Assembly (NCBI RefSeq): GCF_000686945.1
Contig: NZ_JMME01000018.1
Location: forward strand, 1-46,442
Length of the DNA stretch: 46,442 nt
Reading direction: 5' to 3'
Origin: Selenomonas sp. AE3005
GTDB taxonomy: Bacteria > Bacillota > Negativicutes > Selenomonadales > Selenomonadaceae
Both the position numbers and the translations under genes were made by a program. Positions 11,667 to 24,434 of this stretch are shown here, piece after piece. The first letter of the stretch is position 1. Each line of letters begins with the position of its first letter. Under the pieces are notes generated by a model that saw nothing but the letters and a program-made list of their open reading frames with translations, made no database searches and had not been told where the DNA came from.

Positions 11667-11707
11667 CTCCCGTTGACGAATGATTAAGCGTCAACGGGAG
11701 GTTTTTT
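11667..11707 (+). terminator. Intrinsic terminator of the uppS-proS unit
   Basis: CTCCCGTTGACG (11667-11678) and CGTCAACGGGAG (11689-11700) form a perfect 12-bp stem with a 10-nt loop, followed by GTTTTTT. It abuts the left terminal repeat of the next element. Confidence 0.92.
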
Positions 11708-12312
11708 ATTGCAGTTTGACTGTTAGTGTCTGCTTTATTTTGTTTGTTACAGCTCAGTCGGGTGGAGGTGGTAATACTTTTCGCTGTTTCACTAAATGTC
11801 CCACCAGCAAACGACTGGCATTTTTAGCGGCCTTGCGCCGGGCAGGCCAGCGGCGCGATTATTCATCATGGTGTCCAGTGACTATTGTTTGTGGGCCAGT
11901 CCTCACTGCGTTCGGACAGTCGTTCCACTGCGAAAAGCATCACCACCTCCGCCCTAAGCGACGTTCGTGTAAAATGATTCTTTCGCAGTGACAGGGAACA
12001 AGTACATTGATGTTCTTGTAACGGGAGCAACGGGTTCGTGACAATTGTAAAGGTCGTTGCTGGGGGGCGAACGGGGTAGTGATTTTTATGCGGGGAGCGA
12101 CTGCCTGAGCGCAGCGAAGGCCGGCACACTGTAGTACGCAGCTAAAAAATTACGCTGAAAGGAGCGCCGTTGGCCTGCCCGGCGCAGGTAACTGGGCAGT
12201 GCTATTTAGCGAGGTGTGTCGTTTAGCGGAGGCAGAAAAATCACTACCCCGTGAACCCCAGCCACGTATGAACGGGATACGTTTAAGAACTCGTTATCTG
12301 TCAAACTGCAAT
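11708..12312. repeat. 605-bp gene-free element with terminal and internal inverted repeats
   Basis: Both ends carry a perfect 13-bp inverted repeat: ATTGCAGTTTGAC (11708-11720) and GTCAAACTGCAAT (12300-12312). Inside are further pairs: 11761-11784 with 11930-11953 (21/24), 11832-11856 with 12164-12188 (23/25), 11926-11935 with 11981-11990 (10/10), 12026-12032 with 12055-12061 (7/7), 12071-12087 with 12236-12252 (17/17) and a small hairpin ACGTAT/ATACGT near 12264. The open frames over it show no domain or homology I recognise. No clear target duplication flanks it. It could be a MITE-like element, a decayed IS, or a long structured RNA; I cannot decide. Confidence 0.7.
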
Positions 12313-12377: not shown

Positions 12378-12399
12378 TATCATTAGGTTTTAATATATT

Positions 12400-12600
12400 T
12401 GGGAATAGGTGTCCATAGGACTTAATAGGGAATCCGGTATAAGCCGGAGCGGTCCCGCCACTGTAAGGGGGAGTCCTGCACAATATGTCACTGGGGTAGA
12501 AATGCGTACCTTGGGAAGGCGCTGCAGGATGATGAAACCGAGCCAGGAGAACTGCCTGTTCTAGCATCACCGTGATACCTTGGGGTGTCGTGCCTGCGAG
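12400..12600 (+). ncRNA. Cobalamin riboswitch (B12 element)
   Basis: The conserved core is visible in order: TTAATAGGGAATCCGGT and CCGGAGCGGTCCCGCCACTG near 12420-12466, then GGGAAGGCGCTGCAGGATGA and CCGAGCCAGGAGAACTGCCT near 12514-12559. This is the B12-box architecture that binds adenosylcobalamin or related cobalamins. A terminator follows at 12649, so control is probably at transcription. The regulated genes encode a B12-dependent mutase, which is unusual for this riboswitch class. The outer limits are approximate. Confidence 0.93.
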
Positions 12601-24261: not shown

Positions 24262-24434
24262 AAAGGACGTAAGTTCTAGCGCAAGTTCTTGCAAGCGGAG
24301 CGAATGCTTGCAAGAAGACGAGGAGAAGGTTGTCGAAACGTCAGCGGATGCCTTCCGGTTAGCTCAGCCGATAGAACCTGATGAAAGTCCCATTGTGAGG
24401 TGGGAGACAAGTCAGGGGAGAGCGCAGCAGGATA
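24262..24434 (+). ncRNA. glmS ribozyme-riboswitch
   Basis: The self-cleaving, glucosamine-6-phosphate-dependent ribozyme is recognisable by its conserved core. The cleavage site lies before GCGC at 24279, P1 is an 11-bp stem (24286-24296 with 24306-24316), and then come ACGAGGAGAAGGTTGTCGAA, GCGGATGCCTTCCGGT, GTGGGAGACAAGTCAGGGG-like and AGCGCAGCAGGAT. In this class, GlcN6P binding triggers cleavage and mRNA decay, lowering GlmS. It ends 26 bp before the glmS ATG. The outer limits are approximate. Confidence 0.95.

Follow-up and report, generated by a model that had tools for sequence, protein, structure and literature searches.

What kind of genetic object is the 605-bp segment that occupies positions 11708-12312 (plus strand) of contig NZ_JMME01000018.1 from Selenomonas sp. 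AE3005? The stretch analysed comprises positions 1-46,442 of this contig and is hereafter called the window. An earlier note, made from the sequence alone, had described the segment as a mosaic of inverted repeats that might be a non-autonomous mobile element or a large structured RNA. The segment is a complete, non-coding repeat, of which its own genome holds 37 copies by our count. We consider it probable that it is a non-autonomous, interspersed DNA repeat resembling miniature inverted-repeat transposable elements (MITEs), which settles next to certain terminators and is exchanged on the spot, in one orientation or the other.

The element is bounded by the terminal inverted repeats ATTGCAGTTTGAC (11708-11720, plus strand) and GTCAAACTGCAAT (12300-12312, minus strand), which match at 13 of 13 bp; the genus consensus of the left repeat with its flank is TAAATTGCAGTTTG. 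Within the element, the inverted pair 12071-12087/12236-12252 is perfect over 17 bp, and the pairs 11832-11856/12164-12188 and 11761-11784/11930-11953, delimited as in the earlier note, are complementary at 92% and 88%, respectively. All these repeats were found where the note had placed them. The same inverted pairs are recovered by an independent repeat finder (28 nt at 86%, 28 nt at 86%, 23 nt at 96% and 18 nt at 89%) and shuffling does not yield them: in 300 dinucleotide shuffles the longest perfect inverted pair had 12 bp and none reached 13 bp. The folding z-scores of the two strands are -8.0 and -8.1 (60 shuffles each). The further claim that the segment holds no credible gene was borne out. 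No conserved open reading frame (ORF) exists, as the two longest frames are each open in only two of 36 aligned copies and have no match in Pfam; a protein-coding gene was rejected on these results. Rfam gave no match to the element either, nor to its copies in 14 loci searched with their flanks.

A search of the 2.82 Mb AE3005 genome (25 contigs) returned 46 match pieces that merge to the 37 copies. Of these, 28 are close to full length, two are partial and lie side by side, an IS110-type insertion sequence (IS) interrupts one, and six carry an internal deletion. The longer copies are 83-91% identical to the window copy. The family is present in 15 of 22 genomes of the genus, including that of AE3005, and by this search seven have no match. 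Copy-bearing genomes of the genus hold from 26 to 66 match pieces each, among the matches listed. When the search was widened to the family level, 19 of 189 genomes matched, and the only four beyond those 15 (G018, G082, G112 and G182) did so weakly (E-values of 5.5e-6 to 7e-4 over 23-68 bases). The repeat is strongly present in one genus only. These counts contradict the single-copy sequence without conservation that the earlier note, adding a lack of transcripts, had named as refuting its suggestion. Phage records contain no match to the element, and viral contigs none to one exact 25-base pattern; a reading as phage cargo was rejected on these results.

The ends are shared by the family. 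Allowing up to three mismatches, the terminal repeat matches 53 times in the AE3005 genome, and 51 of these matches are at copy ends; the remaining two are a solo end that adjoins a terminator hairpin (C4:210508) and a probable chance match. Similar ends delimit the copies of other genomes. Copy length is mostly 590-610 bp, with variants that lack one of two internal hairpin domains (H1 or H2, described below) and mini forms of about 270-440 bp. A single-hairpin mini form of ~272 bp is found at three sites of G002 (L310, L316, L317), and short copies occur at two more sites (L300, L301). Some copies of a genome other than AE3005 are long, at 735-875 bp, and carry a duplicated centre module (L302, L303, L309). 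The catalogue underlying the comparisons of sites comprises the copies fetched rather than every copy of each genome. From its first version 40 matches without found ends were omitted; many were regained with relaxed ends, at one copy per locus. Other sequences are also found inside copies. The interrupted copy of AE3005 has an IS110-family transposase gene in its H2 region (L060, 1901-3389), and in G002 what is apparently one DDE-type IS lies within copies, at the same position just past H1 in L308, L314, L315 and L319 and elsewhere in L313 (the transposase was checked in L308 only). Many contigs of G009, G016 and G001 terminate within copies. These repeats thus break assemblies, a practical nuisance in several genomes, and copy counts in these three are uncertain.

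The crossing of some inverted pairs, on account of which the earlier note had stated that the segment is not one simple palindrome, is real and has a structural explanation. Two separate hairpins of ~195 nt each are predicted on the plus strand: H1 (11760-11954, stem arms 11760-11787 and 11927-11954) and H2 (12064-12259, stem arms 12064-12091 and 12232-12259), the latter approximately the reverse complement of the former. The H1 region of the window copy aligns at 71% to the H2 region of the related copy L047, the latter read on its reverse strand. H1 contains a self-complementary, mostly invariant GC-rich arm (11834-11856) whose sequence is 96% complementary to the GC-rich arm of H2 (12164-12186), and this 23-nt pair connects the interiors of the two domains. 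An apical hairpin of H1 (11889-11927) and a centre hairpin between the two domains (11991-12019), which lies in a stretch strongly conserved among the AE3005 copies, complete the plus-strand features. As judged from its sequence, the element forms a quasi-palindrome whose two hairpins are roughly mutual reverse complements, and its inverted pairs interlock because of this organization.

Covariation was assessed in an alignment of 36 copies from 14 genomes, out of 126 then catalogued. A first alignment had omitted the two partial copies (L059) and included L060 with its IS cut out. The tested structure is paired in 88% of the alignment cells. Changes on both sides of a pair affect 22 pairs and 93 cells, more than in any of 500 shuffles and six slides, a comparison in which kinship alone can beat the shuffles; further pair types are no more numerous than in the shuffles, 103 of 500 reaching the same value. 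Both-side changes were found in eight of the 26 main-helix pairs of H1, in each of the two pairs that briefly continue this helix upwards and in eight of the 28 pairs of H2. The covariance analysis suggested in the earlier note thus shows compensatory changes in the stems of H1 and H2, where the support mainly sits. The crossing 23-nt pair changed on both sides at one of its 23 positions; being nearly invariant, it gains no independent support as an interaction and is not refuted as one either.

This covariation is also what would be expected if the copies were dispersed genes for a putative large structured RNA, homogenized by gene conversion as rRNA genes are and passively flipped by recombination or template switching at their short inverted ends. 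We hold this explanation to be fairly unlikely. The consensus fold of the plus strand (-74.4) is more stable than that of the minus strand (-64.4), with the plus strand better in 25 of the 36 single copies, and within-genome changes that leave G-U rather than A-C favour the plus strand in the centre hairpin (13:2) and in H2 (48:23). Over all pairs, however, the two types are even (118 G-U against 108 A-C): H1 (18:21) and the ends (24:21) lean to neither strand while the long pairs point to the minus strand (15:41). Copies in which H1 or H2 is deleted do not sit well with a conserved RNA, and gene conversion alone preserves orientation, which is not what the shared sites display (see below). 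The compensatory stem changes fit folded single-stranded DNA as well as RNA.

Immediately left of the window copy, and outside it, lies a terminator-like hairpin (11667-11707, plus strand) with a 12-bp stem, a CGTTGAC...GTCAACG apex and a T-tract, which we propose as the docking feature. The earlier note had located the segment between a terminator and a promoter; the terminator hairpin stands, while on the right Rfam recognizes a cobalamin riboswitch (12390-12573) and the promoter is a claim of that note only. A second Rfam match in the window is a glmS ribozyme at 24267-24428. Of 125 copies, 53 have a stem-loop with a T-tract no more than 70 bp away from an end; among 617 control window sets taken further out, which are probably mostly coding, 15 have one. 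A hairpin with the apex CGYTGAC...GTCARCG occurs within 110 bp of 48 of the 164 catalogued copies, always 1-13 bp from the end, compared to eight of 2516 control windows; orthologous sites are treated separately in these apex counts. AE3005 has 12 perfect CGTTGAC hairpins, eight of which adjoin a copy and four do not. Six terminators were called in the window and the one adjoining the element is the only one with a CGYTGAC apex. Terminators at proS loci of other Selenomonas, taken in two sets, likewise lack it (0 of 9 and 0 of 16). The base triplet that adjoins each end on the outside is mostly TAA.

Hairpins with the CGTTGAC...GTCAACG apex form a class of terminators at the genus level (window 11667-11701; L336-L355), with a conserved apex and a variable outer stem, and are present in some congeners free of the repeat: G008, G017 and G018 hold eight, seven and seven of them while three other copy-free genomes have none. 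We infer that such hairpins may have been there before the element, as a class of terminators that designates where it docks. Since many copies are tightly linked to this one class, target recognition can be tested directly. One docking site is just upstream of an rRNA operon (L121, L122, L089; the 16S match is in L121). The proximity to terminators, together with sites common to several species, could be taken to mean that the element is an intergenic DNA structure serving the host, by reinforcing termination or controlling nucleoid or supercoiling, which spread long ago and was retained where useful. That is very unlikely in our view: seven of the 22 genomes of the genus do without the family as far as this search goes, the contents and orientation of copies turn over, and 37 of 152 scored copies lie between diverging genes (by a crude ORF call).

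Flank matching identified 68 pairs of copies at orthologous sites in different genomes. Orientation is shared in 35 of them and reversed in 33, and both orientations are represented in 15 of 31 site groups. A first, stricter count had given 24 same and 26 reversed. Orientation is random between species. An initial test ranked 14 orthologous pairs among the cross-genome pairs: four came within the top three and ten did not. The best-sampled close pair of genomes is G005, a single contig, and G015, with 20 orthologous pairs that involve 19 sites of G015 and have a mean flank identity of 90-97%. The elements themselves are less than 0.90 identical in 15 of these pairs (six same, nine reversed) and at least 0.90 identical in the other five (four same, one reversed), while the baseline over all 380 G005-G015 combinations is 0.865 ± 0.030 in the multiple alignment. 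Fifteen of the 20 orthologous pairs are thus about as alike as random copies. Flank identity extends into the end repeat and then stops in most of 13 pairs shown. Identity profiles along orthologous copies are mosaic, which points to partial conversion as well and would also suit an RNA gene family; an example is L211/L243, outside the 20 close pairs as its mean flank identity is below 90%, with an identity of 0.935 in the same orientation.

With about half of the orthologous pairs reversed, the copies might instead be invertible switches, each flipped at its end repeats by a site-specific recombinase so as to vary the expression of its neighbours while gene conversion scrambles the contents. 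The reversed pair L208/L240 does keep 0.92 identity, the reversed pair L219/L249 shares about its first 165 columns at 98-100%, and serine recombinases are encoded in all 15 copy-bearing genomes. We nevertheless regard such switches as quite improbable. Of 15 reversed pairs tested, 14 have no unusually long shared run, so that simple inversion in place is insufficient alone; serine recombinases are found in six of the seven copy-free genomes as well, and variants of the end repeat do not clearly follow the flank. Flank-linked variants of this kind, tried as a test for the crossover point, were too few.

Occupancy differs between genomes at some sites. Thirteen G005 or G015 sites have no partner among the catalogued copies: nine are occupied or apparently so, two are vacant and two undecided. 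One clean contrast of occupied and empty, which the earlier note had suggested looking for, was obtained at the L234 site, vacant in G012 with both flanks kept. The proS locus was discarded as an empty site: other genes follow proS in the 26 loci listed and none of 80 proS loci has a copy by blastn. A candidate palindromic scar of an attachment site, TAAATTGCAATTTA, was likewise dropped, for among the matches listed (G002 and part of G005) there was no exact site and most were end repeats.

The mobile-element proposal of the earlier note is upheld in part. It is favoured by the number of copies, by their common ends and non-coding nature, by the L234/G012 vacancy and by site turnover; the lack of a clear target duplication and of an autonomous partner in the genomes searched does not favour it. 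Several observations weigh against the MITE-like reading. No clear element-specific target-site duplication was seen at the offsets tried, where a constant AATT may remain. No autonomous relative with these ends was found in G000, nor did an exact 11-base search bring one up in G002, G005 or G015. Y1 transposases have no match in six of the 15 copy-bearing genomes (G002, G005, G009, G014, G015 and G016) and IS110 recombinases none in nine, some of these assemblies being incomplete. By the strict pattern 116 of the 164 copies lack a CGYTGAC hairpin. Sites are mostly shared, as would sooner be expected of positions fixed long ago than of an element that jumps freely. Homogenization within genomes is clear only for G000, G002, G007 and G009, where copies of one genome resemble each other distinctly more than those of other genomes; in G004, G005 and the G010-G015 group, copies are about as alike between genomes as within. 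The tendency of retained copies to keep their orientation and of replaced ones to lose it is a trend only (4:1 versus 6:9, one-sided p about 0.15). Finally, the copy on plasmid pSR1 of S. ruminantium is no proof of transposition, since it is truncated and arrived with a chromosomal flank.

Some candidates were set aside in this context. Y1 and IS110 enzymes were rejected as required movers since the family persists in genomes that yielded none. In G002, a 2.3-kb pair of ends with a transposase between them is explained by the ordinary DDE IS mentioned above, inserted in a copy, with its own ends and a different position in L313. The pSR1 copy (L051) has the same left flank as the chromosomal copy L099, which suggests a captured chromosomal segment, and it was rejected as evidence of transposition.

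If the MITE-like reading is correct, a putative recombinase or transposase acting in trans would recognize the ends, perhaps together with the neighbourhood of the hairpin. Through this enzyme the copy at a docking site would be exchanged for a different one, whichever way round, and recombination between copies would also create mosaics. A bolder version, which we judge improbable, is a genome-wide cassette exchange: about forty docking sites at fixed places, many of them bearing a special terminator hairpin, among which folded cassettes of ~600 bp are continually swapped in either orientation. The enzyme responsible would read either single-stranded DNA in its folded state or cassette RNA. 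Were this true, the quasi-palindrome would present much the same double hairpin in both orientations and on both strands. No prior description of the family in Selenomonas was found in the open-licence literature of PubMed Central, among the matches listed. The genus is a common one in the rumen, and the repeat family is abundant in it and unmatched in Rfam. Because contents and orientation change at fixed sites between close species, these sites can be used as a natural record of a gene-less repeat replacing its own copies.

Comparison with known systems places the element near several of them. It recalls the repetitive extragenic palindromic (REP) sequences and bacterial interspersed mosaic elements (BIMEs) that are associated with RAYT (Y1) transposases, which are intergenic palindromic repeats in many copies (PMC2817692); compared to these, the Selenomonas element is much larger, has perfect inverted ends and occurs in six genomes in which Y1 was not found. 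An IS110-mobilized element would be accompanied by an IS110 recombinase, and nine of the 15 copy-bearing genomes yielded none. ORF-less group IIC introns of a similar size exist. Docking at terminators is a trait of group IIC introns (PMC7923331), while the element has no group II intron match in Rfam, has inverted ends and sits in either orientation beside the hairpin. A suspected group II intron beside L232 found no confirmation in Rfam. ROOL RNAs are ~600 nt long and belong to a rumen setting. The ornate large RNAs ROOL, GOLLD and OLE are large, non-coding and heavily structured (PMC12286853), as is the element. It differs from them by its lack of an Rfam match, its tens of dispersed copies and its terminal inverted repeats. 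In invertons, inverted repeats flank a segment that occurs in both orientations. Inverted ends and both orientations are seen here too (the latter between species, one genome each), but most of the reversed Selenomonas copies look like different copies and not like one copy turned round. The closest likeness is to MITEs, which are short, non-coding, framed by terminal inverted repeats and dispersed in many copies with deletion variants, and whose mobilization in trans would have its counterpart here; prokaryotic ones measure 50-500 bp according to a review (PMC10969869). The element has perfect 13-bp terminal inverted repeats and no transposase gene, as there is neither a conserved ORF nor a Pfam match. 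It differs in its 605 bp, in the lack of a clear target-site duplication and of a parent transposon in the genomes searched (G000; G002, G005 and G015 by the exact 11-base search), and in being no evident decayed gene. Since it departs from MITEs in size and target duplication, we class it as MITE-like only: a repeat set apart by two conserved hairpins with compensatory changes.
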